Shown here piece after piece: positions 2,191 to 63,880 of a DNA stretch of 64,000 bases. The translations under genes were made by a program, and so were the position numbers. This DNA comes from Tribonema minus. Its lineage: Eukaryota; Sar; Xanthophyceae; Tribonematales; Tribonemataceae. Location: positions 124,001 to 188,000 of the forward strand of contig JAFCMP010000024.1 in the NCBI GenBank assembly GCA_017506865.1. Reading direction: 5' to 3'. The notes beneath the pieces were generated by a model. That model had not been told where the DNA came from. It saw only the letters and a program-made list of their open reading frames with translations, and did not search any database. Each line of letters opens with the position of its first letter. The first letter of the stretch is position 1.

Positions 2191-5100
2191 ATGCGAGTCT
2201 GCGTTTGCCTGTGCCTCGCGGCCACAGCAGCAGGGTTCGCTCCCAGACCTTGCTTCAGCAGAACCAAAGTCAGTGGCAGCTGCAGCTACGGCGGCGATGG
2301 AGGTCCATTGCAGAGTGCCATTGCGGACAGCGGTGCAGCTTTGCGACGGGTTGAAAATGATGACTCCACAGGTGAGCTGCTGCGCAGTCATCTGCTGGTC
2401 AACTGTTTGCTGACTCGGTTCATCACAGTTTTTTCGGCTTGAACTTTGCATTCCTTTGAGTAATGGCATTTGCCACGATGCTTCAGTTTGCGTGATCACA
2501 GTGTCTGCAAAAGGTGTTGCCACACACTCTTGTGAGAACCTAATGGTGCTGTCGCTGTTTCCATTTACTGCTGCAGACTCACTACCAATAGCGAAGGATG
2601 TGGTCGCGGAGGCGGCAGTGAGACTGCAGCCAACCTTTGCGGAGATTGACAGGCATACACAAAGCATGCTGCGGCGGGTGCTGGACACCTTTCGGTGCCA
2701 TCAGGTGATTATCATGTTCAACACATTATTGAGCTCTGTGTGGCGTGCTGCAGCAGCAGATACACACAGATGTTGACTGCCTATGGGTATGTCCTGCAGT
2801 GATTAATATGTGATTCTCATCGGGAGCTGCCAAGATGATGGCAGCAGCGTAGGTAGCGCAGCCCACTGCGCAATGGTTCCGGTATTGCGTTCGAGCCCTG
2901 CACTATTTGTGTGACGGCCGAGCAGCAGCTCGCCTGCCGACCTTGTGGGTTTACCAACAGTGGGCATGACATTCTCAAGCCGCTTGTGGCGCGCACAGCG
3001 GCAAGACTTGCGAGCACAGTTGCACCTGCAGACCTCTCTTCCCTTGTCGGGTGGGCAGCAGCATGTCCGCTGGGGTAGGCAGTTGCAGCCATGGCAACAT
3101 CAGCACGGTGCTCTCAGTGACATCCTGTGTGGCTCCCCAGCGCTCATCCGCCTGCACAACTTTCCATCGGCTACCTCTACTTGCACTTTCGCCCTCCCAT
3201 CTGTTGGTACCGACTTCTTGTGGGAGGCGGTGCTTTTGTGTGCAGACGCCCACGTCCCAGCGACTCTTCTCGTGTTCTTGTGCATTAGTTGAACTTGAAC
3301 TATTTTCTTACACTCATTGGCAATCTTTACCCCCCCCCAGGTCGGCAGCTGCCCGTGGACGGATACGGCCACGGTGCTGCACCTGAACTGCCGTTTCATT
3401 TGTGTTGCTCTAATTTTCATTGCACGGTTTTCGCTTCGTGCATGCCGCTCGTCAAATGCTGACCTCCACATGTCTTCAACTTCAACTCACCCCGTCATCA
3501 GGTCGGCGGCAGCATGTTTGCGGGCATACACACTACAGCCACGGCGACGCCCCTCAATCGCCGTACCTCCACATTTCTTCAGCTTCAACTCTCTGCCCCC
3601 CGCCCCATCATCCCGTTCCCCAGGTCGGCAGCAGCATGTTTGCCGGCGTGGACGGCTACGGCCACGGCGACATCGGCCGCGACACCCTCGACGCCGTCTA
3701 TGCGGAGCTCTTAGGCGCGGAGGCCGCGCTCGTGCGCGTGCAGTGCTTCAGCGGCACGCACGCGATCGCGTGCGCGCTGTTCGGAGCGCTGCGGCCCGGT
3801 GATACGCTGCTCGCGTGCAGCGGCGCGCCGTACGACACGCTGGACGAGGTCATCGGCACGCGCGCGCCGCTGACCGACGCGTTCGACGCGACGGGGGAGG
3901 ATCCGCTGCCGCCGGGGCTTATTGGCAACCTCGCCGAGGTATGTATGTATGCAGTGTGCAGGGTCAGGATGACCTGTTTGACAGAAAATAGAACAGTCTC
4001 GTGGTGTATTGGTCGTTGTCCTCATACGCCATCAAACTTTGCAATGGGCGACGGTCCCCTGCCGCCGGGGCTCATCGGCAACCTCGCCGAGGTGAGGGAT
4101 TTGCACTAGCGCTGACCAACGACAGACGGAAGCGAGGGTACTGACACTCCACAACAGCGCTCAAGCAAGTGTTTGTGTATGTTATCAGGCTGTCTCTCTG
4201 TTGTGAGCAGAGGAGCAACTGTTGAAACCGCCAACCAACTGCAACTGACAATTGAACTTAGGTGACACACCCAGTGGCACCACAGAGGTACGTACTTCAA
4301 GTACATGTTGGGTTGACGTTAGGGTAAGAGGTGGGGCTGGAGACAGGGCAAGCGTCAGGTATTATGCGGAGAAGCGGCGTTGTAGTGATGGGCTTCTTGA
4401 GTGTCTGACGCATGAGTTGGTGTGGTATACTCTGAAGCGCATGCGTGGTCGTCACCGCTCACGGCTGTGAAACTTCCTGCTCTTTGATCCTCGACTTGAA
4501 GCGTGCTTCACAACATTGCATTCGGGGCAACTCTCTTCATCGGCGACCGCGCCGTGCCATGTGCGTACGCCTGACGAGCTCTGGGCAGTCTCTTTGATTA
4601 CCACCCTGATGGCGAGATGCAAGTTCACTCTCACGCCACTCCAACTTTGTGTCTGATATGCCTCATTGTTAGCTCTCCCTCGTTACCAACCGCTGAGGGG
4701 CTCATCTGTTACGAGGGTCATCTGCTGTCGCGCTGATGCACTGACCTCTGCTCTGCTGGCTACTCTGCATGGCCGCTGCAGTCAGTTTGAGATCACATAC
4801 TCCCAGGTGCCGCTGACAGAGCGCTGCGTGTTTGACCTGTAAATTGGCAATCGGCAAGCCTGAGCATTTCAAGACGCTCCAAGGCTTCCATATGCTGCAC
4901 GACTCCTCCTCCCTCGCATCTGTCACCGCTCTGACGCATTCAACTGATTTGTTGACGATTCTACTCTTCCTCTGCAGTTTGGGATCAGCTACTCCCAGGT
5001 GCCGCTGACTGAGCACTGCGCGTTTGACCTGGATGCCATCGACGCCGCCATCGCCGCGGACCCAGCGGTGAAGGTGCTGCACGTGCAGCGGTCGTGCGGC

Positions 5101-8100
5101 TACCAGTGGCGGAAGTCCCTGCCCATTGCAGAGATAGAGAGGTATGGATTAGGTTAGGGTTAGGGCAAGGTCTAGGGCTAGGTTGACTTGGGGTGCAGCG
5201 GTCGTGCGGCTACCAGTGGCGAAGTCCCTGTCCATCGCAGAGATAGAGAGGTGCGCTTTAAGCGTAGGGTAAGGGTTAGAGTGAGGGTTAGGTTTAGCCT
5301 TGGGATAAGGGTTTGAATAGGCATTAGGGTCAGGGCTATGTAAGGTTAGGATGTGAGCAAGGTGCGTTCTGAGGGTAGGGTTAGGATTGAAAATTAGGAT
5401 GAAAGGTGCGTTTGAGCGTAGGGTTAGGACCAGGGTTAAACTGAGAGATTCGAAGTAGCACGAGGGCACAGGTTAGCATTATAATTAGGGTCAAGGTTAG
5501 GAGACCTTGCAGTGAAGGTGCTGCATGTGCAGCGGTCGTGCGGCTACCGGTGGCGCACGTGCCTGCCCATTGCAGAGACAGAGAGGTGCGGTTTTTGAAA
5601 GCTTAGGGTTGGGGTAAGGTTAGCAGAAGGGTTAGGGTTAGCACTAGAGTTACGGTGAGGAACAGTATTGATGATTTATTGTCAGCGGCACCGCAATTGA
5701 GTTCCAGGTCGCTTAACTTGAACAACAGCTCAAGTGCTCTGCTGACGTGACCCTTGTTGCTCCGTCTTGCTGTGGAAGTTGGACGCCACGACGCCTGATG
5801 GGTTGCCGTCAGACGTACCTGCGCTTATAGCTCTTGAAGAACTTATTCCCTCATTTCGTCATGTACATACAATGTCGCCTGCGGAAGCAGAACCTGGGAT
5901 CAACAACTGATACGAGAGCGGGGCAGCGATCGGCTGACATGCAGCCCTAATCGTAACTCTAGTCCTAACCCTGCCCATCAGCGCACTATCCACTCTCAAA
6001 GAGATAATGATGCTGTGGCAAGGCATTAGCACTAGGTGAGTTGGGCAAGGCACAGTGTTCAACCCGCTGCCACATCACCAACCAATCTTCTGTTAGGGGC
6101 TGTCGTGTAGCTTTGCTTTTCCACGGACATATTTCAGTGGATGCTGCTTGCTACATTCAGTGAAGCTGAAGCAGTGCAACCACAAGAACGACGCGACGCT
6201 AGGTTGCTACAGTTTTCATCCGGAGCCTGCAAAACAACTCCCCCCAACTGACGGTCTGGTCTCGCCAAGTGACACGTGTAGCACATTTGTACCTCTTCTT
6301 GCGTTCCACCTGCCGCAGATTCTGCACGCACATACGCACGCGCTGGTTGACCCGTCCAGATCTGGTGATATTCGTAGACAACTGCTACGGAGAATTCGTT
6401 GAAGATCGGGAGCCGCCGATGGTCGGCGCCGATCTTATTGCGGGGTCCCTCATAAAGAATCCAGGTGGGTGCCTTGGCGCTGAGCATTGAGCACTATTCC
6501 CAGCGACGCTCACGTGTGCGTTGAAGTACGCTGAATTGCTTTGTTGACATTTGGCGTAATGGGCCTTGGCACTGAGCAATGAGCATTAATGCCAATGACG
6601 CTAAGGTGTGCGTCAAAGTAGGCTGAACTACATTGTTGACGTTTGGCGTAATTGGCCTTGGCACTGAGCGGTGAGCATGAATGCCAATGACGCTAAGGTG
6701 TGCGTTGAAGTACGCTGAACTTCATTGTTCGTATTTGGCGTGATTGGAAGGAGCAGCACATGCGATACCTGCGCCGGAAAAGCCAGCGATGCAGTTTTTG
6801 CTGGGTCGTTGTTTAGTCGACAGCTGCATGTGCAGCGTGGGAAGCGACTGGTGGTTGGCGCTGACTGAATCGTAAGCCACCTCAACAGTCACCAGGGGCG
6901 GGTGCCCTAACGCTAGCCCTAAAACCCCAACCCTAACCCTGATTGCAGGCTCAGTTATTTTCTAAAGAATGCCACCCTATCAAGACACATTGAGGTCAAT
7001 TGACAGACGGTGGCAACAGATTGTGCATGGCCGCCTAGGGATGGGGTTAGTGTTGATGTTGTTGTCATTGCCACCATTCATTGGCCTGATCCAGTGGCCA
7101 TGTCCGTTGCTGGCACGATTCCGCATACCGCGGTGGCTTGCCCTAGGGGTAGAGTTTGTTGACTGAGTAGAAGGCTCTTTCATCGCTGCTACTGCGCACA
7201 CTTGGTTTTAGTCAGGCCAATGACCCAGAGCAGCTGCCGTCGTCAGCGTTTTCTGAATGTCTCACTGCGGCAATTGTCGGGGCTGAAACAATGAGCAAAC
7301 ACGAAGTTTGCGTTGGTTTCTCCTTTCCACTGCAATTCAATCATTTATTAGTTATTGACTGCAGTGATGGCACTATGGATGGCATTGATCACACTATTTT
7401 TACGTTTGCCTGGAACCTGACTCCGTGAACGACTGTGACGGTGGTGCCAGCGTTGCCTCCCAGGTGTTTCGTTCTCGCTGCAATGGACTCACAACACAAC
7501 AGATGGTGGCACCAGCACTTTGATTTTTGTTCAACTGCGCAAATGTAGGGACTTTACCAATGCAGGCGGAGGGTGCACAGGCTTTCAAGCGTGTTGTTAC
7601 AACAGACGCGCTGGTAGGGATTCTATGAACAACAGTGGCTGTAATAAGGCTTTTTTTGTGCCCATGCGGTACCTACCATACAGCGCTTTTACTTGTTTTG
7701 ATACTGACTGCAGTGCACTTCGCAGAACCAACTCTGCAGGATCAACTTTAGGACTACGTACTGCGAAGTGTTACATATACGTATATGATACACGTGGTGA
7801 TGTCAGGTTTTGAAGACCGGTCCGGCCATTCCAGTAAAATATAGCATTTGATGTTGAGCTGAGCCACTTTTTTGCCCACACCATTGAAATTACTTTCCCA
7901 CAAGTACTTGTAAGCTTTTCGCATACTATATTCCAACAAAGCTTGTTGCGATGCGCTCCATGCGGTACCAACTTTCAACGACCCACCCAGCCATTCCAGC
8001 TGAATACAGCAGTGAACGATGAATTGGGTCACTCATTCGTTGCCCAGATTATTGAAATTACAATATGATAGATCCATATCGTTGATAGTACTTTTCTAGA

Positions 8101-11100
8101 GCTTCTCGCGTACTTCACTTGTGAAGTTATCAATCGTATTGTTGTTGTGACGCCCTCCGGGCGGTACAGCATTCAATGATGCATTGTGCCATGCCTTGGC
8201 CAGATCATTGAGTGTACTTGATCAGAGATTCAGATCAATGACGTACCTTTCCCTCCCGAGATCCTTTTGAGCTTTCGCGTACTTCACTTCTGAAATCTTC
8301 AGACAATTTTTGTTGTGATGCCCTCCAGGCGGTACCATAGCACGAAGCGGCGGCTACATAGCGGGCAAGAAAGCGCTCGTGCGGGCAGCAGCCAACAGGC
8401 TGGCAGCACCAGGTGAAAACTTGTTTTCTTTTCAAAATAAGATGTCCCATGATTTCAAAATACTTGTCCACATGAATACGCTTCAAGAGAATTTTAACAC
8501 CGTGTCCCATGGCTTCAAATATTTGCCCACATAATTGCGCTTCACTTGAAAACCGCTGCTTGTTTTCAAAAATTGTGTCATCCGCTCAGCAAACTCAAAG
8601 CATGGGCATCTCGAATAGAAATCAACCTGTGCTTCGAGCTGGAGCACTAGAGCGGTTGACTATATCCGGGAGCCGCCGACTAGTGCCACTGCGGGCGGTT
8701 TCATCGAGCAGCCTTACTGTCGGTGCAGCAGCTACAGGGCATTGGGCTGTGTAGACACTGCATTTGTGGCACATGCTGATTTTTCATCATCATGAATGGT
8801 ACCCTACAAATACTGACATTTAATGTTTTAATGTACACCATGGCGACAACACTACTGTGCCTGAATTACTTTTTTTGCGTCATGAATTCATCATCAGTAC
8901 GGAACAATGTATCAGTGCGCTGTGCTGCATTCAGCTTGTATGCAACGGCAGGAGCACGTTTTGGCCTCAGCAGCTGTCTGTGTCAAGTCGCAGTTGCCGC
9001 TCTGTAGCGCTATTCTGTCAACATCAACTCATGACGTTTCAGAATGCAACCTCGGGACATGTCCCTGCCAGTGTTGTGGGGTGCACGCAAAGATAGGCAA
9101 AGTCACTATTGTACGCTGCATACTGCATAAAGAGTGGGTTGACAGACGATCAATCACGAGCACCTGCAGTGCGCATGTCAGAAGCTGGCAGCACCTGGCT
9201 AGGACACACGAGATAACAGAACTCCATGCCGAGCTGCTGGGTAGTGGCGCGCAATGGTCACGAAGGCGCATCATGCTGCCTGGCTAGACATGCAACATGA
9301 TCAAGCGCGTGGTCTGGCATCTACTCCCGGCAAGACCATGGACTCTTCATGTTTGTGTTACAGTTTGGCCTTGATCTATAATCAAGATGTCCAAATGCAG
9401 CACATGCTTCCGCGGATTCAGACGTTCTTTGAGTGCAATTTGACGTGTCCGTGTATGCGACGTTGTGCACGTGACGCTTTGTAAATTCGACGTACGCCAT
9501 GCAATCCGGTATGACTAACCCTAACCTCACCCTTAACCCTCACCCTAACCCTACCCTAAACGCAACTTCAAGCCTTATTCTGCCCTCAACTCCAAGCCTC
9601 GCTATAACCTCAGCAACCTCGGGGCCTCTGATTGTAGAAACAGAACAGCATCAATGGTGGTAAATTCGACGTACGCCATGCAATCCCGTATGACAGCCAT
9701 GTACCTACAGCAACAGGCACCTCGTGGCATACACTTGGCGAGACCATGCGTGTGGCGGGTGATGACACGCTTCATCTCTACATTTTGTATCGCTCGAGGC
9801 ATGCCGTCAAAGTTCAGGGCTAGGGTCAGGGTTAGCTGTGGCACGTCAGTGCGCACCAGGGACCCAATGTCAGCACGTGCTGAGCACTGCTCCGTCACTT
9901 GCCGCAACAGGCGTGGCAGGCGGCGCCACACTGGGGCAGAACCGCAACCTGTACCAGGGCCTGTTCATGGCCAGCGGCGTCGTAGGAGAGTCGCTCAAAG
10001 GCGCCAACCTCGTTGCTGAAGTACTGGGCAACGGCTACCAACTACCTACCAACCCCGCGCCAGGCGCCGCGCGCACGGACATCATACAGGCCGTGCAGCT
10101 CGGCACCCGAGAGGTGAGCAATGTTGATGTTTTTTTTTTTTGCGCTGTGCATCATGTGACACACGGCAGGTACTGTATCAGCTTTGCAAATATATGTTTA
10201 AGCAGCCACGCCTCAGGCCTGCATGCAAGTCCTGATGGATAAAATTCTTCCGGACAATGCACTTGCTGACATGTGTGTGCACCAAGCTTCTGCAGATGCA
10301 TCATGAAGTCGCCGTTTTTGTTTGCGATCAGTGCGCAATGCAAAGAGCCCGAGGTAGCGGTGATCAAGGGCAAGACAAATCAGTAAGCACTGCGTATTTG
10401 TGCCATCATAGAGTGAATGCACTGGTTTTAATTCCTGCTTTACTAATATCAAATTCATGTCATTTTGTTAGCCCGATCTGCCTTTGTGCTTCGGCCGTCA
10501 GAAGCGCCGCACATCACATTTAGTACCTTCCAACATACCTACTTTCTCAAATTATCATGCTGCAGACGGCTTTTACTCAGGCGTCGCATCGCAGCGTGTC
10601 TCAACACTTTCTGGTACTTCGGAAGTATGAGGTAGTACACGCAGACCGCTCTGGTGCTTTGTTCACTGAAAGTAACTGAAGGTATGCAGGTACATATGTA
10701 CGTACCATGCCTTGCCTTGCACCCGCCCGTCGCGCTCTCTGAGCTCCGTGTTGTCGTGTGCGCGCTGCCCCCGTGTGCGCTGCTGCAGCGCACGGTGGCC
10801 TTCTGCAAGGTGGTGCAGAAGCTGAGCCCTGTGAATGCGTACTACCGGCCCGAGCCCGGAAAAACTCCAGGGTACGGGGATGAGGTGAGACACTTCTTGA
10901 CGTTTTTTTCTTATGTTGAAGTTTTTTTCTTGTTGGTTTTTCAGTGAACGTTTCACGTCAGCGCGTACTATCGGCCCGAGCCTGGAACCACGCCAGGGTA
11001 TAGGGACGAGGTAAGGCACCTTTGTGTATTTGAGCATACATAAACATCCCAAGTTGTATCAATAGAAGATGAGTACAGTGAACGAGCTTGCTTCTTCAGT

Positions 11101-12595
11101 GGAGGCGAAGACAGCAAATTTTGCAAAAAATCCGCCTAAAGGTGGAATACCTGCAAGAGAAAAAATTACAAGAATTGTTGTTAATCCTAATGTAAGGTTA
11201 GTTTTTCCCCATATTACCAAATCTGTTAAATATAAAGTAATACCATTTTTGTTTGCGTACTACCGCCCTGAGCCCAGCACCACCCCTCCAGGGGTATGGG
11301 GACGAGCTGAGGCAACTTGTTGAGAATTTTATTCTTTTTCTGCGTCATACAGAAGATGAGCCGCGTGAACATGTCGAGGTACTACCGAGCCTGAGCTGAG
11401 AGCCATTCCGGGAAATGGCGATGACGTGAGGCAGTTATCGAATGTTTTTACTCTCGGCTTTTGTGCGTATTTGTGATTGTTTTGAATGTTTACACAGGAA
11501 AATTTTGGGCGCGCATGTTTTTTGATGTGGTGCTTGGTGTACTCCATGTAGCCATATCTTGAACTTCAATGCTAGCGCAGAGCGTGTTTGCAGCTGTGCA
11601 TTCGCACCCGGTGAACGCGATCGTTTCGGGAGTGCGCCCTTGCCCGCCGCTGATGCTTCCAGTGCGCTAGACTTGTGGAGGTTCACGTGCGCTAGCGTCA
11701 TCTCCGCCGCCCTCTGGTGGTGACGTTGGTGCTGGATTTGTGCTTCTGAAGCTACAGAGCAGGCACCGCCAAGCCTGTTAGCACCGACCACGCCATCATT
11801 TGGGCACAAAAGTGGCTCTACCGCTAGCCCTGTGGAGGCCTGCCTGGTGTGCAGATCGCGTCATATTGCTGTGCTGCTGTCTTTCGTATGCGTCGTACGA
11901 CCGCCAAGCTGCGTTTCACGCGCACATGCGCATAAATGGATTTGAGGGTCAAGCGCTAGGCACTATGGGCCTGGCGATGCGGACATCTCCCGCCACGCAT
12001 ACCACAGAGACTTGGTACTTACGTTTGAAGAGTAAGCATGTACATCATGATGCTTTCTGCGAGAAGGCACGCATGTCACGATTTTCTGACCCTGAGGAAT
12101 ATGGTACCTGTTTGTGGTATCTTCATGAGACGGTTCACCTGTTGCTACGCGCCGCAGGTCATCCTGGCGCCATGTCATCGCTGGTCGCTGAACTGGAACG
12201 TGGAACTACAGCAACTTCAACAGCGCCAAGCTACAAGTAACACCTATACTTTAAAGTATTTATCTAGAAATGTGAAAAACCTGAAGCGGACTGTGCAGCA
12301 GGATTTGTACGCTTCTTGACCAAACTTGTTGCATGTTCCCCTTTCAGCGTTGTACGCTTCTTGACCACACTTGTCGTGTGTTCCCTTTTCGTGTGACTGC
12401 ACGCCTGTTGCCACACGGCCACAGGTCATCTTTGCGGACGGCACCTTCACGGATGGCAGCACCCTAGAGCTGAGCGCTGACGGCCCGCTGCGCGAGCCCT
12501 ACGCCGTCTACGCGCAGGGCTGCACGCACTGGACGCACTGGGCCATCATCCTAGAGGAGGCGCTGGTGCAGATGGGGCTCGCACGTGCGGAGTGA
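2191..12595 (+). CDS. PLP-dependent methionine gamma-lyase / 'aluminium resistance' family enzyme, probably plastid-targeted
   Basis: Nine exons join in phase to 495 codons: 2191-2371, 2577-2704, 3624-3938, 4978-5141, 6319-6464, 8329-8412, 9911-10113, 10789-10884, 12425-12595 (TGA). The core matches the Met_gamma_lyase family (COG4100, bacterial YnbB-like), a fold-type I PLP enzyme. Seen are GYGHGDIGRDTLD, SGTHAIACALFGALRPGD and PYDTLDEVIG in exon 3, RSCGYQWR in exon 4, VDNCYGEFVE and the PLP-lysine segment SLIKNPG in exon 5, GGYIAG in exon 6, LYQGLF and LKGA in exon 7, TPGYGDE in exon 8, and LELSADGP in exon 9. The family is annotated as cystathionine beta-lyase-like; its true substrate is not settled. 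The start MRVCVCLCLAATAAGFAPRP looks like a signal peptide plus FAP-type transit cleavage site. An upstream in-frame GTG at 2179 was not used. Introns hold degenerate copies of exon edges, listed separately. Confidence 0.88.
3051..3560 (+). repeat. Three decayed acceptor-side copies of exon 3
   Basis: Exon 3 starts at 3624 with cag|GTCGGCAGCAGCATG and runs into GGCTACGGCCACGGCGACATC. Degenerate versions of the same acceptor plus about 50 exonic bases start near 3051, 3341 and 3502, all upstream of the true exon. The copy at 3502 is nearest to the original; the one at 3051 has lost its acceptor. None continues into the rest of exon 3, so they are not alternative full exons. Confidence 0.85.
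4050..4095 (+). repeat. Decayed donor-side copy of exon 3
   Basis: The last 40 bases of exon 3 (ending at 3938, CTCGCCGAG|gtatgt) recur here about 153 bp downstream as GACGGTCCCCTGCCGCCGGG through CTCGCCGAG|gtgagg, with a good donor. Confidence 0.85.
4786..4842 (+). repeat. Decayed acceptor-side copy of exon 4
   Basis: Exon 4 starts at 4978 with TTTGGGATCAGCTACTCCCA. The same first 50 bases, with substitutions, occur at 4786 after a gtcag acceptor. The copy then meets an in-frame TAA where exon 4 has GAT, so it cannot replace the true exon. Confidence 0.85.
5146..5660. repeat. Degenerate interstitial telomere-like TTAGGG tract in intron 4
   Basis: TTAGGG and close variants (TTAGGGTTAGGGCAAGG, GTAGGGTTAGGAT and so on) run for about 500 bp, interrupted by two copies of the exon 4 donor edge. 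The sense strand is G-rich here, the opposite orientation to the CCCTAA tracts that precede acceptors. Confidence 0.8.
5193..5588 (+). repeat. Two decayed donor-side copies of exon 4
   Basis: The end of exon 4 (GCAGCGGTCGTGCGGCTACC through GAGATAGAGAG|gt, donor at 5142) recurs at about 5193-5252 and 5515-5588, each followed by a usable gtgcg donor. The intervening intron is filled by degenerate TTAGGG repeats. Confidence 0.85.
6465..6745 (+). repeat. About 105-bp tandem repeat, three copies, starting at the exon 5 donor
   Basis: Immediately after the exon 5 donor (6464|gtgggt) a unit beginning TGCCTTGGCGCTGAGCATTG recurs at about 6563 and 6655 as GGCCTTGGCACTGAGC. Each copy holds a GACGCT(A/C)A(A/C)GTGTGCGT core and a GTTGA..TTTGGCGTAAT end. 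This is a clean example of tandem growth of an intron from its donor side. Confidence 0.85.
7941..8172 (+). repeat. Two decayed acceptor-side copies of exon 6
   Basis: Exon 6 (84 nt, 8329-8412) is entered through TGTTGTGATGCCCTCCAGGC and continues GGTACCATAG. Weaker versions of this acceptor context occur near 7941 (GCGATGCGCTCCATGCGGTACC) and 8143 (GTGACGCCCTCCGGGCGGTACA), about 170-200 bp apart. Confidence 0.7.
9484..9700 (+). repeat. Intron 6 repeats: telomere-like tract and duplicated 35-mer
   Basis: A CCCTAACCC-type tract lies at about 9513-9564. It sits between two copies of the segment TTCGACGTACGCCATGCAAT, at about 9486 and 9664. No coding potential was recognised here. Confidence 0.6.
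10955..11432 (+). repeat. Three decayed donor-side copies of exon 8
   Basis: Exon 8 ends GCGTACTACCGGCCCGAGCC ... GGGGATGAG|gtgaga (10884). Degenerate copies with donor-like ends follow at about 10960-11012, 11255-11312 and 11380-11430. Each is truncated 5' at about the GCGTACTA point, that is, only the last 50 or so exonic bases are copied. Confidence 0.88.
12152..12190 (+). repeat. Decayed acceptor-side copy of exon 9
   Basis: GCCGCAG|GTCATC followed by diverged sequence at 12157 resembles the true exon 9 entry at 12425 (CCACAG|GTCATCTTTGCGG). It is short and imperfect, so less certain than the other copies. Confidence 0.5.
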
Positions 12596-13375
12596 CACGG
12601 GGACATTGTTTCTCATACGCAGCGCTGGTGATGCTATTGGACTTTTTCAATAACAGCAAGCCAGCGAGCACTGCCTCTCAAGCATCGTGTGGTGATGGAA
12701 GTTGGATGCGATCACAAAGCTGCGCGTGTTTGACGCACTGGGCCATCAACCTAGAGGGGGCGCTGGTGCAGATGGGGCTCGCACGTGCGGAGTGACACAG
12801 GGCATTCTTTGTTGTACGCAGTGCTGGGTGATAATGAATTTGTTTTAATGACAGCGAGCACTCCCTCTCGAGCCGCTTCTGGCGATGGAGAAGTTGCTTG
12901 CATTGATAAAGCTGCGCGCACAGGACGCACTGGGCAATTATCCTAGAGGAGGCGCTAATGCAGATGGGGCTTGCGCGTGCAGTGTGACACGGTGCACTCC
13001 TTCACGTACGCAGCGCTGAGCGACATAATGGTATTTGTTTCAATGACAGCGAGCCAGCGAACACAGCGCTGCTGTTGAAGATGTTGATGGCAATGACAAA
13101 GCTGCGCGAACAGGACGCACTGGGTGATCATCCTAGAGGAGGCGCTGACGCAGATGGGGCTCGCACGTGCAGAGTGACACGGGGGCATTGTTTCTCGTCC
13201 GCAGCGCTGGCCGATGATGAATTTTGTTTCAACGACAGCGAGCCAGCGAGCACTGCCTCTCAAGCAGCGCGCGCTGTTAGAGACGTTGATTGCAATGACA
13301 AAGCTGCGGAAACGTGACGCCCTGGGCCAGAAATCTTTAGGAGGCGTCTTGTGCGCGCAAAATGACCCAGGCGCA
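12596..13375 (+). repeat. Four decayed tandem copies of the gene's 3' end
   Basis: The last about 65 coding bases of exon 9 (GACGCACTGGGCCATCATCC through the GTGCGGAG-TGA stop and ACACGG) recur after the true stop at about 12733-12800, 12925-12990, 13113-13182 and 13310-13372. Stop positions are spaced about 189-201 bp. Divergence tends to increase with distance. The copies keep the stop codon and 3' flank, so the same duplication process acts on a terminal exon where no splice donor exists. Confidence 0.9.
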
Positions 13376-28813: not shown

Positions 28814-28911
28814 ATGCCGAGACGAGGCGTGCTGGTGGTTGTGGCGACGCTGCTGGTCGATGCCCGCGCCTTCACCACAGTATCTCCTCTCTGCCGCAGG
28901 CAGTTTGCGTT

Positions 28912-28980
<69 letters not shown>

Positions 28981-37698: not shown

Positions 37699-37730
<32 letters not shown>

Positions 37731-37829
37731 CAACGCAAACTGTCTGCTGCAAAGAGGCGATACTGTGGTGAAGGCTTGGGCGTTGACCAGCAGCGTCGCC
37801 ACAACCATCAGCACGCCTCGTCTCGGCAT
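35323..37829 (-). pseudogene. Plastid sigma-70 factor, right-arm copy, one-base deletion at the end of exon 1
   Basis: Exons are about 37829-37490, 37266-36733 and 35790-35323. Leader MPRRGVLMVVATLLVNAQAF, then a shorter poly-Gln run (about 10). Exon 2 keeps regions 1.2-2.4 including NQGRTIRLPVHVHD, with the normal Q where the left copy has a stop, but has TCW for TWW in region 2.3. Exon 3 has a consensus-like region 4 (LSPREQEVVCLRFGLDDGRA, VTRERVRQIETRALQKLRQP) and a 17-residue longer tail. In exon 1, WYLAR meets TGA because the left copy's ACCTTTCACGGATGAG is here ACCTTGCACGATGAG, one base shorter just before the donor GCGCT|gtgagt. No nearby donor restores the phase to exon 2 (GTC GAC). 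Intron 2 is about 570 bp longer than in the left arm. It could be a pseudogene, or functional if the deletion is a sequencing error. Confidence 0.8.
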
Positions 37830-38237
37830 GGTTGCACACCAGACTACGCGTGTTTCTGTGTCGAGCGCTTAGCCGAGGAGGACAAGTTGCGGTGGTGACC
37901 AGCGCAAGGTGTTGCTGCAGAGAGGCGACGTGCGAGGGCTAAGCCTTTGTTGTGGCACCGATGTGCTGTCTGACGTCGGGCAGCTGGATTGATTCACCTC
38001 GGATGCGGCAGCTTACTCGACAGTAGCGGTCATGTCTCACAATCCCGGCGCGTGTCAATCAACTCTGTTCAAAGCAAATACCCTCCCTGACACATCCGGG
38101 GGTAGGGGGCGAGGGATGCTAGGGAACGCTGCGCTCAAACGGGTCAGATACCATCACCTCAACCACAGTTCTCCTGCACACTTCAACTTCATCCTGCACT
38201 TCAAGTTGAAACAATGTGAATCGAAGGGAGATGATGA
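37830..38237. promoter_or_regulatory. Shared 5' region of the right-arm sigma and ankyrin copies
   Basis: About 410 bp, colinear (inverted) with 28462-28813 plus about 28041-28114 of the left arm. It contains the conserved CATCCGGGGGTAGGGGGCGA block and lacks the segment holding the small 85-aa ORF. Confidence 0.5.
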
Positions 38238-44600: not shown

Positions 44601-47600
44601 AGTTCGCTGCGCAGGGAGTGGATGGTGCGCTCTTTCTCCGCCACCAGGGCCTGCTTGTCAACAAAACAAGCGAGTGTGTGTCACTGTTTCGGTAGATCGT
44701 TCACTTCGGACGCCGCCCGCGCACCTGGGCGCGCATGAGTCCAGACACTCATCATGTGGCCTGCTGGCCTATGATGTCTGTACACAATTTTTCTCCCGTC
44801 GCGCACCAAGAAAAGCTTCACAACAACGAAATAGCATACAACATGTAGGATAGGTATCCAGAAAGAAGGCAACATACATACCTGCCCCTGCTTCAGCTGA
44901 GCGCGGAGGCTGGCAGGGCCTTGCTCGCGCGCCTTCTTTGCCTCCGCCACCAAGCAGTCCCTGTCAATCTGCAGACCCTCGAGCTCTTCTTCAAGAACGC
45001 GCTCGCACTCTTGAAGTTCAGCCGCGTGGCGCCGCTGCGCTGCATCCAGGCGCGCCTGTAACAGTTGCCAAGGGGGGGGGCGTCGTTGCGAATTCAGTGA
45101 CTTCTCTGCGACTGTCTATGAGAGCGGCTAGGCTGCTGTAACAGTCGTGGAGATGGGGTCAACGTTCGTTGTGAACTCAGCCATTTCTGTGCGGCACTTC
45201 ATATGCAATGCAGCGGCGCAGCTGATGGCGTGATTCGAGATTGTTGGCGCGCGTGCGCGTGCTGCAGGTGTCGTTGTGTGCACGAAACACGTGGAACAAC
45301 ATGGGGGTTCTCTGTGATCGTTGAGCAATGCTGCCTTGTGTGCCGTGGCCCTTTCGCTGCGCACCGCACGCAGGCTGTGTACATACCCTATACATGCCCT
45401 TTTTGTAAAGCGCAGGCACACGACGTGCCTGGAACAGCGGAGTTCATGCTGAGAGTGTTGGTTGAGCAGTGGTGCGTTGTGAACAGCATCACCACGCCCT
45501 TCACGTACTGAATTTACTTTAAAGTACACCCGGGAGGGAGCTGCACACGATGTACCTGGAACAGCGCGGAATTCCTGTTGAGAGCGTTGAGCAATGCTGC
45601 CTTGTGCACGGCGTCCTTCTCGCTGAGCGCTGCGCGCAAACGCGCGTCGTAGTCTTGGTACTGGCGCCGCGCCTCCGCCCTGAGCTCGCGCTCTTTCTCA
45701 CGGTGCACCTGCGCACGAGCGTTCAAAAGAGGCGGCGGGTAAGACACTGCCGTCAGTTCAACAATGGTTTTGACGACATGTGCGCGATAAATTTCTTTGC
45801 ACAAGAGAGAAAACGTAGACTCCGCCCTAAGCTCGCGCTCGTTCTCGCGGTGCACCTGCGCACAGGGGCGTTTACAAGGGGTGACGGGTGAGAAAATCCC
45901 TCGTTAACTTTTGCGGAAAAACTGCCATGATGGCTTGAGGTCAGCAATGGTTTCAACGACGCGTGCGCGGTCAAGTTGGCCGTACAAGCAAAAGCGCGAG
46001 CTCCGCTCTGAGCTCGCGCTCTTTCTCGCGGTGCACCTGCGCAGGGGGCGTTCGCGAGGGGCGGCGGGCTGGCGAATAGCAGATCAGCGAGCGTGTAGCT
46101 GTAGGTCAAGCAGCGCATGCTGCCAGCCGTCACAAGACGACGACAGACTCCCTTGGGAAATCCCTCAATACATTTTGCGGTGGCTGCACAGCTCTTGAGG
46201 CCAGCAGTGGTGTCAACGACGTGTGCGCTGTGAAGTCGGCCAAACAAGACAAGAAGTGTGGGCTACGTCTGAGCACCTGCGGTGTGCAGCTGCACACGGG
46301 GCCTTCGCAAATCATTCTGGACAGACAGAGGCGTTTGGCGCAGTCTCTGAAAATGTGATCTCGAACAAGGCGATCGCAATGGAGCTCGCGCTCTGTCTCT
46401 CAGTGCGCCTGCGCCTGAGTCACTCGTGGACTCGGCAATTCGTGAGTTGGACATTGTACCCCCAGGAGGGTGGGGGATAGGGTTAGGGCTACGCTGCATC
46501 TGCGCAGATGTGTGTACCCGTGATCGTTGCGCATTGCTACTTTGACAAGTGCGTACATGAAAGGTTTAGCGCCACATATTTTGGTGTACACGAAGCATCG
46601 CATTCTATGACTGCCAGCATAATATACATCAATGATGATCAGTTTCTTGACAAAAAAATCAATGCACGACACATGCAGACGTGCGCAGCACAACATCATG
46701 CAAATATTCTGTCGGTTGTGCTTGCAATAACCGTCTGGGCTAAGGTTAGGGTTTGGCTAGGGCTAGGTGTAGGTCAACCGCGCTCACCGTGCATAGATTG
46801 TCGACGTGCTTGAGCGTGAGGTGTTCCATGGAGCGGCGGGCCGCGTCCCGTGCCGCGCACGCCGCGTCGCGCTCTGCAATGGCGGCCGTTCGATCCCTGG
46901 TGATAGAGCACGGGCAGAAGCAAGCACCTCCGCTGTCGGATACTTCGAAGTACTTCTATGTACTGGGCCCAATGATCAGCTGCTCGTGATGATGGTGTAT
47001 TCATCAGTGTAGGTGGGTATATGCGTACATGTGGGTATGTATGCATGCCGTGTGTGTAGGCAGGTATATGTACACGTGGGCATGTATGTATGCCGTGCCG
47101 CACACGCTGCGTCGCGCTCCGCGATAGCGGCCGCCCGATCCCTGGTGATGCAGCCGGCAGAAGCAAGCACCCCCACTGTCAGATATGTACTGGGCCCAGG
47201 AAAGGCAAGCACCACCGCTCTCAGATATGCCCTGGGCCCGGGGATCACATTGTAGGTTGCACTTCAAGTACTAGATGCTTACTAGTTGCGTTATTTGTAA
47301 GTGTACGCTTCGGAGGACACAGGGGTCCAGACACTTTGCCGATGCAGCATGCCTGCGGGGAGGTCCCCCAACTGATGTGCGTTTGTGTGTGATGCTACGT
47401 TGCGTGTGAGGCAATACATCTCAGTACCTGACTAGATGCATACCTCAAATTTGAATAGAAGAACTTCTTTTCTTCTTAAAAGTATACTACTGATGCATTT
47501 CCTATGCATATGAGGTAATGCTCTATCATACGTGATGCTATGCACCACTGTAGCTGACACATCATATATTGCAGGTGGACCGACTACATAGAGAAGGAGG

Positions 47601-50600
47601 TAGGCAATGGCAGAAAACTGACATCTAGCACAACGACCAAGGTGGCGGCCGCCTGTTGGGGCGCGGGAATTTAGGCACAATGTGAAGGGCGCAAGGGCAC
47701 TTGTCTGCCAATGCACCGGCAAGAATGCCGGAGGCCCATCATAACCGATGGGCCTCCATTGAAGTCTCCCTCATTGAAAGGCACACTGGTGGCACGCGCG
47801 AGCGGGGGGGCGGGCCCCCCTGCCGCAGCTGCAGTATGTATGTAGTAGGAGGTGTGGCAAGTAGTGGTGCGTATGAAGTTCAAGTAACGTATGCATCTAG
47901 TAGAGAGTGTAGGTATGAGTGAAAGGGGTAGGTATGTAGTAGAGGTGGTATGCATGTAGCAAGGGGATCATGTATGTGACGTGTACGGTTTTAGGTGGCA
48001 TGGCATGTACATACACTTCTGTCGCCGAAAGGGCCCGGCGGCGTGGTGCCGCTGCACTGCTACTTCAAGTTATTGGTCATCAACTTTGAAGTCCTGTACT
48101 TCAACAGAGAATGCAGCGCGCGGCTCAGCGCGTCGTCCGTGACCTCGTAGAAGCGCACGACGTCCATGAAGGACACGGCAGCGTGGTGCTGAGCGCTGAA
48201 GCGGTCGCGTTGCACTGCGACTTCAACTGTCGAAGTAAAGTATTGTGATTGAAGTGAGAACAGCGCTCACCTCACGGCCGCGCCTGTGACCCCGTAAAAG
48301 CGCACGACGGCGTTGAAGGACACGGCGGCGTGGTGCTGAACGCTGAGGCGGTCGCGGCACTCCTGGTGTGCCATCTACTTGTCAATTTTTGCGGTCAATA
48401 AAATTCACAAGTACTGTACTTCATGCGCGCATCTCACGGCCGCGTCTGTCACGCCGTAGAACCGCACGACGTCGTTGAAGGACACGGCGGCGTGGTGCTG
48501 AGCGCTGAAGCCATCGCGTCACGACACATTGCACTCCTGCTTTGGTCAAGCTTTGCAGTCAGCTACCGCAACTTGGTCCACAAGCGAGGAACACAGTGAA
48601 AATGAGCACACCTCACGGGTCCGTCACTCCGTAAACCGCACGACGTAGTTGAAGGACATGGCGGCGTGGTGCTGAGCGCTAAAGCGTTTGCGGCGCCACT
48701 TCAAGTTATGCAGTCAGCAAATTCTGAGTCAGGTACTTCAAACAAGAATGCAGCGCGCACCTCACAGCCGCGTCCGTGACTCCATAAAAGCGCACGACGC
48801 GTTGAAGGACACGGCGGCGTGGTGCTGAGCACTGAGGCGGTCGCGGCGCCGCTCCTCATTACACTGCTACTTCAACTTGAAGTACTGTACTTCATGTACA
48901 CACCTCAGCGCGCCCCATCCGTGACCCCGTAGAAGCGCACGACGTCGTTGAAGGACACGGCGACGTGGTGCTGAGCGCTTCAACTTGAGATTATGCAGTC
49001 AACAACTTGAAGTACTGTACATCATGTGCGCACCTCAGCGCCCCATCCGTGACTCCATAAAAGCGCACGACGTCGTTGAAGGACACGGCGGCGTGGTGCT
49101 GAGCGCTGAAGCGGTCGCGGCGCTCTTCGTCGCGCTCCGCGAGCGCGCGCCTCAGGCGGCCACGGCGGTGAATCGGCTCAGACAGCCGCAGCAGGCAGCG
49201 CAGCAGGGAGAAGCCGCGGCGCGCCTGTAAAGGGAGTCACCAAAGTTGAAGTGCATGTTGTTGCTGGTGAGTTGAAGTTGAAGTTTGGCTCCGCGAGCGC
49301 GCGCCTCAGGCGGCCGCGCCGGGGCATGGCCCGGTCGCGCGCAGCAGGCAGCGCAGCAGGGAGAAGCCGCGGCGGGCCTGCGGTGGGAGTCATAGTTGAA
49401 GTGCATAGTTATGATAGTTGAAGTGCATAATTTTGGTGAGTCAAAGGTGAACTTAAGCTTTACGAGGCTATGACTCGTTTGGCACAAACCGCCGGCTGCA
49501 GTGTGAGTCAAGGGTGAAGTTTACTAGAGGGGCGTCCGACAGTGCATGGCGCAGGGTATGAGGCAGCGACGCTCTGGCGTTGAGCGCTGCTGCTGTAGCG
49601 TTCGCGTGGCGTGCAGTGCTGGCGTGCAGTGTTGTTGCGCGCGTCAAGCGCCGACCAGGCGGCGCCCATGAGAGCGAGAACCAGCAGAGTGCTAGGTGAG
49701 CCAAAGTGCACTCTTGAAGTGATGAGTCATACGGCAAGGGCGATTGTATTGTCGCGCTTGCCGTGTTTTCACGCTTAGGTTGATGAAGTGCAGTTGAAGT
49801 TTAGCTTCATGACACGTTTTCCTGTCGTGCTGCTGCTGCGGCAGCCAATCCGCACCAGCCTGTGCACCTCTGCCGCCCTGCACTTTCAAGTGCCGCACGC
49901 CTCTGCCGCTCCCCGCCCTCACCCCGCTTCACACAGTTGAGCGGCTGCTCATGCGACGCGTTGCTCGGCAGACTCGCGCTGCTGCGCACCGTCAGCATGA
50001 CTGGCCTTCTCCTTCGCTGCATGCTCTCGCTGGCGCTCTTGCACTGATAGCACGTGCCGCTACTTCAGTCGAAGTATTGAACTGGAGCAGCCGCCAGTCT
50101 GCCAGTTCCCTCTCGCACTCAAGCGCTGCCTTCGCGTGCATGGGCCCCTCCATGCTGATGCGCCGCGTGTGCGCGCAACATCAACGTCCACAGCAAAATT
50201 CCGAAACCAAGCATGTCTGCTTAACGATCTGGGCCGTCAACAAAGGCGGTATCATAGCTCGTGCGCTCATGCGTGCGCTGCCTTCCGCACAATTCATCTG
50301 AGCCTGCCAACGGCAGCCCTCGACTATGCACCACCGCTGCCAATGGCACCATGCTCCGACACGTCACATTTTATGATGCGCAGATCACAACTTCAAACAT
50401 GCACACTGCATTGCACAGAGATCCCTCGCCCGTGCGCTGTCGGCCTCAATGGTCTCCCGCAGCTCCCCCTGCACGCGGGCGCGCGCACAAACTTCAACCT
50501 TCCAAACTTCAACAACTGCACAACTTCAAACGTCTACAGCGATCCCTCACCCGCGCGCCGTCGGCCCCGATGGTCTCCCGCAGCTCCCCCTGCACGCGCG

Positions 50601-54209: not shown

Positions 54210-54250
<41 letters not shown>

Positions 54251-57200: not shown

Positions 57201-59700
57201 CGCACGCAGCACTGTCGGATATTACAATATTTATTGAGTATTTCACCTCTGCGCAGGTGCAGCAACAGCATGGCCTTCATCAAAGAATCACACTCATGCT
57301 TTGAGTCTGCCTCACAAGTATATATGACATCATTTCCGGAGATCGAAAGAAGCTCTATGCTGATAATTTACGCAGAAATGGGGTACATACAACACAGGCA
57401 GCACTCTCGCTGTAGAAAAGTTACTCAGGCTCAAGTAGTTTTCTCACAAGTATCCAAGTGTTAGTATCCTGGCAGCATCAAACGCGCAATGAGCACATTT
57501 CTGGGAAAGGTATGAAAAAAAACCTCACATTCGAAAAATGCTGACCTTTTCGTGCCCATCTGTCCCTTCAAACAGCTTGTTCCGCAAAATGCAGCCATGG
57601 CTGACTGTTCAGAATGTATTGCAGCGCGCCAACAGGCCTTTGCATTCTGTGCACGCATTCATGGACACCAGATACCAGCGGTTTCGCGCGCGCCGCGCCG
57701 CGTGGCCATTTGCTGAGCGCTGCCATTTCAGAATTAAACAGCTTCTAGAAGAAGCCTGGTGTTAAAGTAGCAATTCGATTGAATAAATTAAAGAAGAAAT
57801 ACCTTTTCAAGTGAGAAAGGCATCACACCCTGTGCTGACAAACGGCGACGCAGCGCTGCCCCCTTGTGAAGCAGTATAGCAGCTGACACGGTGGCGCACT
57901 GTATTCCCACGTGTCTCAGCCAGTCAATGACAATTTGCTCGCCTCTTAACCCTAACCCTAAGTAGCGTCTCAGACAGCCAGATGCATATGCATACTTGTA
58001 CGATTACAGCATTGAAAAAAGGCCACGTCTGCAAGCAGAAGTATGTGCTTTGCACTATACGAAGCACGGGGCCCCTTATTTACAGCAGTGTGGCTTCAAC
58101 AATCGTGGAAAGTCGTACCTTTGAGCGACAGCGGCTTCATGGCGATCTCGCCGAAATCTTGTGGAGCATATTTACGGCAGTGTGGCTTCAACAATTGTGG
58201 AGAGTCGTACCTTCCAGCGACAGCGGCTTCATGACGATTTCGCCAAAATCTTGCTGAGCATCGCTGCCGCAGTCGCGCGTGAGGCACCTTACATAGGCAT
58301 CCGCAAGCTCCACCACTGATAGGAGGCCCCCATCGGTGAGACCTGCGTCACTGGTAGGGGGGGAAATGTCATGAAGGGGGGGGGGGGGGGGGGGCTTCAA
58401 CAATCAGTCTACGCAGCGTTGCACTCAGTGATCACCAGTGCACAGGTCACTCGTTTTTGACAGTGATCACCAGCGCGACAATGAACGAACAGCGGAGAAG
58501 TGGAAGCAGCGGAGGGCAAAACCTCAACAATCCGTCTATGCGGCGTTGCCCTCCGTAATCACCGGTGCGCCAAAGAACGAAGGCGCACTGGTCGCTTGTT
58601 TGACAGTGACCACCAGTGCGACAAAGAATGAAGGCGCACAGGTCACTCAAACGAGCTCCATCACAGGAAGGAGGCCACCGTCGGTGAGACCTGCGTCACT
58701 GCGTGGGCGGAGAAGTTGAAGTTAGGGGGGGGGGGGGGTGCGGAGGGCAAAAGTTCAACAATCCGTCTACGCAGCGCAGCACTCAGTGATCACCAGTGCA
58801 CAGGTCAATCGATTTTGGCAGTGATCACCAGTGCGACAAAGAACGAACGGCGGAGAAGTTGAAGCAGGGGGGGTGCGGACTGCAAAACTTCAACAATCCG
58901 TCTGCGCAGCGTTGCACTCAGTGTTCACCAGTGCACAGGTCACTCTTTTTGACAGTGATCACCAGCGCGACAAAGAACGGACAGCGGAGAAGTTGAAGCA
59001 GGGGGGGTGCGGAGGGCAAAACTTCAACAATCCGTCTGCGCAGCGTTGCACTCAGTGTTCACCAGCGCACAGGTCACTCGATTTTGCCAGTGATCACCAG
59101 TGCGACAGAGACGGAAGGTGCACAGGTCACTCAAACGAGCTCCGCCACTGACAGGAGGCCACCGTAGGTGAGACCAGCATCACTGGTCGGACGGGAAATG
59201 TTGTAGCAGAGGGAACGGGCAAAACTTCAACTATCAGCAACCTTGTATTATTAGTCAATAAAGTTTACGCAGCGTTGTACATATCCACACATATCATCAG
59301 TTAACAAAGTCTACGCAGCGCTGTACATATATATAGACTGTATATATAGAAGTATACGACAGTCAGAATCTAGTGGGAGGGGAAGATCCTATTTTGCGAT
59401 TTCGCTCAGAAGTGATCGTCAAAGCATATTGAGAGACCTTCAAGTTGTCACAAGATGCATGTAGATTTTAATAGCAAGCTTGACATCACCCACTGGGCTT
59501 CGTCACGCCCTAGGCGAGAATTCATGACATGTGGAAGTACAAGTTCAACTACTTGATGCGGAAAGCAGTGTGACGTAGGACAGCATTCCACCATGTGGCC
59601 AATCTGGCTACACACCTGGCAAAGCTCAGCAGCGACTCGTAGCTCATGCAGTCCGCCATGCTGCATGGCTCAGGAGGTAAAAGCAGCAGCAGCAGCGGCG

Positions 59701-59740
<40 letters not shown>

Positions 59741-62700: not shown

Positions 62701-63880
62701 TGTCTCAGTTGTTTGCTGCTTGTAGGCGAGGGACCCTTCAGGGCGCGAGCCTTCTTAAGTATTTTGGCGCGCGCGCGATTCTCCACACTACCGATGCACC
62801 TGCGTGATGCCACGCTTGCTGATTTTTGCGAGCGGGTATGCGTACGTGCGTACCGCTACAACCGTTCGCCAATCAGCGCGCTGGGGTCGAGTTGCCGCTC
62901 CCCAGCGGGACACCTGGAAGCCTCCAGCTTATTCTGAAGCTGGCTCTCCAGCGCGTGGGATGTTGCTGCAGAGGCAGCGCTGAGCGCGTGCAGCGTATTG
63001 ACACTTGGCACGTGTCGTGCTGCAGTCTCAAGCCTGCGGCCACGCTCCACGGCCTGCCTGCAGGGCGCTCTCATCAAGGTCCCTTTCTCCCAGGAAGTGA
63101 AGTTGTGCGTAACGGCTTTGAAGTTGCTGCGAAGTGAATTTTTCGCGTCGTGGTGCTGTTGGATTTGCTTGACGTAGAAATAACACCGTCTCACAGGAAG
63201 GCAGATGCTCGCAACATGTACGTACTTTGATGCTCAAAGATTTATTGCAAAGAACCTTTTGCGCACGTTCAAAAAACCTTTGCTGAGGTGGGAGCGATGG
63301 TCTCTGACCCGCTTTGAGCGCAGCTTACCCCTTTGCTAGCCTCCTCTACACCATGGGTATGGGTCCCTCGCCCCCTACCTACGGAGGATTGAGGGAGGGC
63401 CTTCCTTGTCAAAACATTTGCTGTTGTTGGTGCGTCATTTCGCGCAACAGAGACACCACCTTGTTATTACGCGCCTGCACACGCCAGCAGCCTGTGTCTG
63501 CGTGCCTGCACACTGCAGAGTCTGCTGCTTGCAGGTAGTACACGGAGGTATATGATAAGCAAACCTGTTCGACGAGTCATTAGACCAGAACCTCGACCGC
63601 ATGCATAGGACTTTGTCGCCGTGTTCTTGACATGACTATACTAAAAACCTATTGCCCATATGGCGTTACTGCTACCGAATACAATCAACAATTACCAGCA
63701 GAGCGAGAAACAAACAAGCCTCGCTGCAGCAAACTATTGCCTCACCGAGAGGTGAAGTGGGTGCAGTGGGTTTCCGTGTATGGTGTAGAAGGTGAATATG
63801 TGCCACAGCTCCTGCTCCACCTCACGACCAGCATCGCTACCGCCTGCACCTTCCTCCACCACCACCTCCCTCTCCTCCAT
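54066..63880 (-). CDS. p25-alpha (TPPP-like) domain protein with poly-Gln C-terminus
   Basis: Exons: 63880-63746, 62063-61662, 61103-60607, probably about 60251-60094 and 59668-59616, then 58350-58211, 57034-56951, 55781-55619 and 54690-54066 (TGA). The first three and last four join in phase; the two middle exons are uncertain. Exons 1-2 match a p25-alpha domain: EQELWHIFTFYTIHGNPLHP, LLRLTKDCQLLD, VLSTADVHLAFAAV and LSYNEFLDLLLE, then SRKLY at the start of exon 3. A Pro/Gly-rich insert splits the domain between AFAAVVRKR and HARLSYNEF. Exon 3 has a long Gly-rich low-complexity run. Later exons are helical (VVELADAYVRCLTRDC, VWEVLVRCAVVVDD, IAHQVQALLGHM). The last exon ends in poly-Gln. p25-alpha proteins bind or bundle microtubules and are associated with cilia. 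I infer a flagellar or microtubule role. Total about 750 aa. Confidence 0.82.
55786..56310 (-). repeat. Four decayed acceptor-side copies of the 55619-55781 exon
   Basis: Read on plus, GGCACCAGGC(GG)CGCCACTG, CGCAAGGCCGTGGCCTGCAC and CTGATGCGCGAT recur with copy starts near 55862, 55998, 56100 and 56238 (true edge about 55768-55781). Spacing is about 95-140 bp, with pairs of near-identical copies (55860-55940 and 56093-56175) that suggest higher-order duplication. Confidence 0.9.
56585..56830 (-). repeat. Two decayed donor-side copies of the 56951-57034 exon
   Basis: The exon end (plus: GCTCACCAGTCGCGCCGAGT, TTTGCTGACGCAGCGCCGCG) recurs at about 56778-56826 (CTCACCTGTTGCGCCGAGTC) and 56588-56645 (diverged, itself doubled as GCTCGACCTTCGGTCC twice). 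Confidence 0.88.
57165..57265 (-). repeat. Decayed acceptor-side copies of the 56951-57034 exon
   Basis: CAGCACCTCCC(A/G)(A/C)AC(A/C)TCTGCA (about 57170-57195) and CACCTCTGCGCAGGTGCAGC (about 57243-57262) resemble the true exon entry at 57020-57040. Confidence 0.65.
58085..58150 (-). repeat. Decayed donor-side copy of the 58211-58350 exon
   Basis: Plus-strand GTGGCTTCAACAAT(C/T)GTGGA, GAGCGACAGCGGCTTCATGG and CGATCTCGCCGAAATCTTG repeat the exon's last about 50 bases and following intron, 93 bp away. Confidence 0.9.
58385..59235 (-). repeat. Tandem repeats upstream of the 58211-58350 exon, including two acceptor copies
   Basis: A unit of about 120-200 bp (CTTCAACAATCCGTCT(A/G)(C/T)GC, GTGATCACCAG(T/C)GC, ACAAAGAACG, GGCGGAGAAGTTGAAGCAGG) recurs about five times. 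Two units contain the exon entry (CTCCATCACAGGAAGGAGGC near 58648 and CTCCGCCACTGACAGGAGGC near 59138, each with GGTGAGACC(T/A)GC). A G-run lies at 58378-58393. Confidence 0.85.
59680..59745. repeat. CAG/CTG microsatellite in the p25-alpha gene
   Basis: AGCAGCAGCAGCGGCGGCAG and following AGC repeats sit immediately upstream (transcript sense) of the candidate exon at 59616-59668, forming a CTG-rich pyrimidine-containing tract before its acceptor. Confidence 0.8.
60418..60476. repeat. Telomere-like CCCTAA tract in the p25-alpha gene
   Basis: CCCAATCCTAAGTCTAACCC then AAACCCTAACCCTAACTGC; a degenerate C-rich tract on plus, so G-rich in the transcript. Confidence 0.8.
60480..60548 (-). repeat. 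Decayed donor-side copy of the 60607-61103 exon
   Basis: Plus-strand GCGCGCACCTGCTGAACGCG, CCGCCGCTGCGTTGACAGCG, TGCTCCCTGACGAC repeats the exon's last about 60 bases plus donor, 125 bp downstream in transcript sense. It is followed by a CCCTAA tract (60420-60475). Confidence 0.9.
63275..63420. repeat. Diverged copy of the sigma/ankyrin promoter block
   Basis: TCTGACCCGCTTTGAGCGCA, GCTAGCCTCC, CCCTCGCCCCCTACC and GGAGGGCCTTCC match, in the same order and orientation, 28490-28575 (and inverted 38065-38150). Here it lies in intron 1 of the p25-alpha gene, so it is more likely a dispersed repeat than a promoter. Confidence 0.6.

Follow-up and report, generated by a model that had tools for sequence, protein, structure and literature searches.

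In plants, small tandem duplications that come from the repair of staggered nicks leave short direct repeats in non-coding DNA, as in the case described here, and to our knowledge they have not been described as building introns from exon edges. In a potato RdRp gene, a single tandem duplicate extended across an intron-exon boundary and gave rise to a new intron (PMC4974935). The same source gives vertebrate ATP2A1 and fission yeast as cases of the Rogers model, in which an intron is gained by tandem duplication of AGGT-containing exonic sequence (PMC4974935). Here we analyzed a window of 64,000 nucleotides (bases 124001-188000 of contig C24) from the Tribonema minus assembly (158.18 Mb, 554 contigs), in which the introns of a gene for an aluminum-resistance/methionine gamma-lyase-like enzyme (the PLP gene) hold decayed direct copies of the edges of the neighboring exons, mostly with the splice site and some adjoining intron sequence. 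We call these copies echoes. Exon-edge copies in flanking introns are confirmed as real, and they extend past the window.

To place the exons of the PLP gene, a query was built from the window exons; it retrieved the annotated T. minus 'aluminum resistance protein' P0121 (495 aa), which maps exactly to nine exons on the + strand at window 2191-12595. Self-alignment of the window (self-BLAST) gave 76 direct and only 3 inverted repeat pairs less than 3 kb apart. At five of the sixteen PLP splice junctions we found clear copies in the adjoining intron: three of the exon 3 acceptor, one of the exon 3 donor, one of the exon 4 acceptor, and two each of the exon 4 and exon 8 donors (Table 1). Exon 3 is the clearest case, as both its ends recur, the start together with its pyrimidine run and splice AG. 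A sixth junction, the exon 6 acceptor, is marginal because the unit is almost wholly intronic, with ~7 exonic bases and the AG gone; the splice dinucleotide is also gone from the third exon 3 acceptor copy and the second exon 8 donor copy. Three extra copies repeat the end of the last exon, each with the TGA stop. The original prediction had the stop codon echoed four times; the copying stands, and the count is three extra copies with TGA.

To ask about exon edges elsewhere in the genome, exon places were taken from family searches (FCPs, kinases, TCP1 chaperonins, kinesins), which gave 155 candidate regions, and we examined 40 of them, ranks 1-20 and 41-60 when sorted by the number of exon places. 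These loci, chosen for many exons, come from one genome and three gene families and comprise 140 exon places (74 kinesin, 44 TCP1, 22 FCP, no kinase). Each exon plus 30 bases was compared with 1.5 kb on either side at a match cut-off score of at least 44, and two sets of flanks taken from unrelated loci served as controls. The true flanks yielded 148 same-strand and 4 opposite-strand matches, with matches at 52 of the 140 places, while the two control sets yielded 0 same-strand and 4 opposite-strand matches. Exon and copy differ by several percent, which makes assembly duplication an unlikely source. The predicted exon-edge copies with splice sites are thus borne out by the five clear PLP junctions and by the 148 versus 4 matches around exons, with near-empty controls, and the strand-aware excess over controls holds beyond the window (148 same-strand matches versus 0). 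Repeated duplication of single edges, also predicted, recurs at many loci, with 1-8 copies per exon side in 67 place-and-side groups when all 140 places are kept.

Four of the 140 places turned out to be echoes themselves, with 16 matches, and dropping them left 136 places and 132 same-strand matches. The expected edge lay on the expected side in 118 of these, 60 being upstream copies of the 5' edge and 58 downstream copies of the 3' edge, and these 118 matches represent 54 edges in 42 of the 136 exon places. The exceptions were twelve mid-exon matches, one upstream copy of a 3' edge (in an FCP) and one match spanning both edges; a downstream copy of the 5' edge alone was found in none of the 132. 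The prediction that acceptor copies always lie upstream and donor copies always downstream therefore describes the great majority, and its 'always' is not literal. A full exon copied with both edges, as in tandem exon duplication, accounted for only one of the 132 matches.

To look at the introns themselves, profile-contiguous exon pairs were joined by GT-AG sites and reading frame, which gave 57 introns (median length 657 bp) from 63 pairs; 50 well-fitting introns from 25 loci were kept, nearly all from two families (27 kinesin, 22 TCP1, 1 FCP). Repeat pairs in them number 91 direct and 2 inverted, and the direct pairs divide into 30 at donor edges, 20 at acceptor edges and 41 in the interior. 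Donor echoes were present in 14 introns and acceptor echoes in 11 (4 had both), 7 had interior repeats only, and 22 had none at this sensitivity. Recognizable repeats make up 7.9 of 34.4 kb of intron sequence; with this 23% of the bases and 22 of the 50 introns without any repeat, it is plausible, though short of proven, that introns grow chiefly by edge duplication. With 17 and 12 occurrences in these 34 kb of intron, the octamers TTGAAGTT and AACTTCAA far exceed the 0.3-0.4 expected, and they are common in the window too.

To determine what the duplicated unit contains, we compared the intron stretch behind each exon with the stretch behind its nearest copy, taking z>3 as homology. Homology held for the spacers of 21 of the 25 nearest copies; with the second stretch reversed it held for 2 of 25, with it reverse-complemented for 1 of 25, and in repeat-free introns for 0 of 20. 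The homology implies that the units are junction-spanning tandem duplications that include intron sequence, just as the original prediction had proposed. The ratio of homology length to offset, with a median of 0.31 in 31 exon-overlapping arrays and 1.0 in 19 others, had prompted the idea that exon edges were pasted in as short inserts with unrelated filler. We rejected this for most copies because a wider search revealed homologous spacers; a short-insert origin may still apply to the 4 of 25 nearest copies with z ≤2.2. Successive spacings fall within 75-200 bp in 117 of 144 cases, with a median of 140 bp and no sharp peak, and such a broad distribution of unit lengths does not support the suggested nucleosome-sized units.

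We consider it probable that local tandem duplications over exon-intron borders, kept by protein selection and then decaying, explain the echoes. Short tandem duplications, direct and mostly of 75-200 bp, would be frequent in the T. minus genome and may be made by repair, for example by fill-in and joining of staggered nicks. When a unit spans a border, the copy joined to the complete exon would still be spliced, the other copy would become intron, and the intron would be longer by one unit. Protein selection would retain only the arrangements with a whole exon, so that spare acceptor copies end up upstream of it and spare donor copies downstream. Since the other outcomes break the protein, this rule carries no information on the mechanism. 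The intronic copies would be functionless and would decay, with edge copies perhaps recognizable for longer since their exonic half stays exon-like. The real product uses the outermost sites despite nearer and often intact echo sites, so the spliceosome would have to pass over these, possibly because, unlike a complete exon, an echo has no partner site; as an echo is half an exon, exon definition would explain the use of the outermost sites.

Tandem duplication near splice sites is also what the Rogers model offers, under which the arrays would be new introns made from duplicated AGGT-containing exon pieces. That model predicts donor and acceptor junctions copied from each other, and in none of the 50 introns did the likeness of the two junctions exceed the 99th percentile. 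Junctions so unlike each other imply that the arrays are not new introns of this type, and the duplicated units here contain intron sequence; we regard this origin as extremely improbable. The duplications lengthen existing introns, and none of the 50 looks created in this way.

Exonic parts of echoes are preserved better than their spacers, and GT or AG is present in 34 of 44 aligned echoes (GT in 19 of 24 donor copies, with 6 further donor copies unaligned there, and AG in 15 of 20 acceptor copies), as might be expected if echoes were functional and selected as decoy, recursive or alternative splice sites. However, the echo dinucleotides were not conserved above their surroundings: 34 of 44 (77%) is not above the ~81-87% expected for two bases from the neighboring exonic mismatch rates. 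Mismatches at codon positions 1, 2 and 3 amount to 7.4, 8.8 and 13.3% in donor echoes and 8.4, 3.4 and 17.5% in acceptor echoes (the position 2 value being 10 mismatches), which is what an unconstrained copy should show opposite an exon whose changes fall mainly at third positions. When pooled, the ~7% at positions 1 and 2 equals the extra ~8% at position 3, again as for a free copy. Moreover, 45 of 50 echo sites would, if used, produce a frameshift or a stop, and only 5 leave an in-frame open reading. Judged from the aligned sequences, decay at codon positions and splice dinucleotides looks close to neutral and the copies look non-functional, and we think a selected function quite improbable.

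The process does not appear to be confined to introns. Direct repeat pairs were found at 10 of 12 tRNA gene loci of ~3 kb, two of which overlap the same tRNA gene cluster, and three arrays beside tRNA genes are 92-93% alike over the full unit, with flanks that are not necessarily all intergenic. Together with the array at the PLP stop codon, the tRNA-flank arrays imply that the duplications are not intron-specific, contrary to the notion that they belong to introns.

Several observations weigh against uniform neutral duplication as a complete account, and they concern the exon edges. Edge arrays number 25 of 37 against 15.1 ± 2.6 under a simple placement null, but in forward simulations of uniform neutral duplication, which are simple, the edge share was 0.43-0.77 depending on starting intron length, so that the edge count alone proves nothing. 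Of the 38 young-looking arrays in the 40 loci, 29 overlapped a known exon edge, against 8.1 ± 2.3 by random placement. We applied an age correction, a stricter identity for edge arrays that allows for their conserved exon partner, and the excess persisted (22 of 31 versus 6.6, and 13 of 22 versus 4.6 ± 1.8), weakening at the strictest cut-offs (7 of 16 versus 3.4, P 0.02; 6 of 15 versus 2.6, P 0.03); unknown exons were counted as non-exonic, which biases the test against an excess. Among interior arrays of the modeled introns, 0 of 12 reached 86% identity, against 45-56% in simulations. In addition, 17 of 23 pairs with exonic identity of at least 0.9 have less than 35% of the neutral spacer score, a count in which pairs from one junction are not independent, while the same cut-off captured 8-24% in simulations and 18-23% with balanced large deletions. 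When only the nearest copy was taken, with a wider search and a cut-off of 0.87, 10 of 19 pairs still had low-scoring spacers.

The edge excess and the preservation of the exonic half need something beyond uniform neutral duplication: either preferential birth at junctions or longer survival of the likeness. If birth were preferential, duplication would be directed to exon-intron junctions, for instance through breakage linked to transcription or splicing, and edges would be true hotspots, consistent with the excess of young-looking arrays there over random placement and with the lack of interior arrays above 85% identity. Yet in many edge arrays divergence is far greater in the spacers than in the exonic half, so that edge arrays look younger than they are, the stop-codon edge and the tRNA flanks were duplicated too, and simulations without targeting reach the observed edge share; we think targeting unlikely. 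Longer survival is favored because the exonic half is far closer to the exon than the spacer of the pair allows, and exon-templated gene conversion would explain such preservation. In its full form, exons would act as master copies, with gene conversion repeatedly rewriting the exonic halves of echoes as the spacers drift, a proposal that we put forward tentatively and hold to be doubtful. If it were true, the introns of this alga would keep a living record, templated by exons, of duplications at their borders, and intron growth would be both made and remembered at the junctions. Tandem duplication over borders remains our preferred explanation for how the arrays arise.

An introner or other dispersed element as the source of the copies would leave relatives elsewhere in the genome. 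For the PLP stretch 2900-5700, only one dispersed repeat and telomere-like stretches match elsewhere among the 40 of 89 candidates scored, with the echoes themselves lacking copies elsewhere in that set; positions 4500-9000 of locus L012 have only short, low-complexity-like matches. The dispersed repeat (~190 bp, window 4093-4285) does lie at an echo splice site, starting inside the GT of the exon 3 donor echo, and with its neighbors reads GTGAGG ... CACAG, which made it a candidate introner. We rejected it because eight other copies show that the element starts TGAGG: it is a separate, GAGG-flanked element, and none of the eight starts with GT. On this evidence a dispersed origin of the echoes is barely conceivable. 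Some 20 further full or near-full copies of the 4093-4285 repeat exist in the genome, and it is probably a small mobile element or the end of a retroelement.

The telomere-like sequence GGGTTAGG was noticed separately. It is found in the window at ~5147-5660, 9515-9559 and 51441-51472, and a portion of PLP intron 4 matches sequence close to contig ends. It also occurs in 10 of the 50 modeled introns (loci L009-L046), ~60x above the dinucleotide expectation. Such stretches could mark break repair inside introns.

Beyond the PLP gene, the window contains an FCP gene with PF00504 matches at 22716-22808 and 24081-24218, and a coiled-coil gene region for which a protein search returned no annotated protein. 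At 15490-18024 lies an 844-aa open reading frame with a reverse transcriptase domain (RVT_1), a family with at least 151 matches in the genome. Reading frames indicate two oppositely oriented blocks at ~26346-30725 and 35038-39968, with one ankyrin-repeat gene and one sigma-70-like gene in each. Tandem arrays with a unit above 60 bp are few from 26 to 42 kb, except for a long CTATAG/TATAGCTA repeat tract at 32087-32677. An exact-match comparison with DNA families of plasmids gave no match.

Table 1. Positions in the window of PLP exons, their echoes and further tandem arrays.
Feature	Position	Strand	Basis
PLP gene (aluminum-resistance/methionine gamma-lyase-like), exon 1	2191..2370	+	exact match to P0121 residues 1-60
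Exon 3 acceptor echo, third, most decayed, AG to GG	3051..3110	+	ends by eye
Exon 3 acceptor echo, second, pyrimidine tract and AG intact (~3341)	3331..3381	+	ends by eye; peptide VDGYGHG matched
Exon 3 acceptor echo, first, AG intact (~3502)	3462..3548	+	self-alignment pair 3462-3548/3565-3671
PLP exon 3	3624..3938	+	P0121 mapping; splice sites read from sequence
Exon 3 donor echo	4046..4092	+	87.5%, offset 153; residues 197-208 repeated at 4056-4091
Exon 4 acceptor echo	4783..4839	+	self-alignment 89%, offset 192
PLP exon 4	4978..5141	+	P0121 mapping
Exon 4 donor echo, first, GT intact	5193..5252	+	self-alignment and P0121 mapping
Exon 4 donor echo, second, GT intact	5503..5587	+	self-alignment and P0121 mapping
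Exon 6 acceptor-region echo, marginal, AG lost	8099..8167	+	pairs with 8269-8335
PLP exon 8	10789..10884	+	P0121 mapping
Exon 8 donor echo, first, GT intact	10963..11019	+	self-alignment and P0121 mapping
Exon 8 donor echo, second, GT to CT	11254..11336	+	self-alignment and P0121 mapping
PLP terminal exon 9 with stop codon	12425..12595	+	P0121 mapping
Array of terminal exon end, unit ~190-200 bp, TGA in all three extra copies	12519..13354	+	
Coiled-coil gene region, several tandem arrays	43031..49125	-	strand from reading frames
Tandem array, unit ~134-143 bp, without established exon relation	58306..59201	unassigned	

How introns lengthen without transposons is an open question, and the echoes offer a mutational route that can be counted and read from the sequence at many loci. 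They bring an internal clock in their codon positions and an internal control in their spacers. They also constitute natural tests of splice choice, as near-identical sites at a distance of ~75-500 bp from the real one are expected to be passed over; if they are, this would count as evidence that a yellow-green alga (Xanthophyceae) uses exon definition. In one open-access library, judged by titles and the beginnings of abstracts, we found no description of genome-wide exon-edge copies in introns. What we describe is a known process, local tandem duplication, in a new form marked by unusual density and two quantitative oddities.

Compared with the described systems, the T. minus arrays share a feature with each and differ from each. 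As in the potato RdRp gene, the duplicate reaches from the end of an intron into the following exon and carries the splice signals; the potato case is single and made a new intron, whereas in T. minus many loci, donors as well as acceptors, and up to 8 copies are involved, and existing introns are lengthened (PMC4974935). With the Rogers model the arrays share local tandem duplication within a gene as the supplier of intron sequence, but in that model the unit is exonic and creates an intron, which the T. minus echoes do not (PMC4974935). Introners likewise supply intron sequence in mass, and they are dispersed mobile elements, whereas the tested T. minus echoes are local (PMC9860276). Tandem exon duplication, with mutually exclusive exons, also places direct copies of exon sequence in neighboring introns; these are whole usable exons, whereas a T. 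minus echo is one edge with one splice site (PMC9013439).

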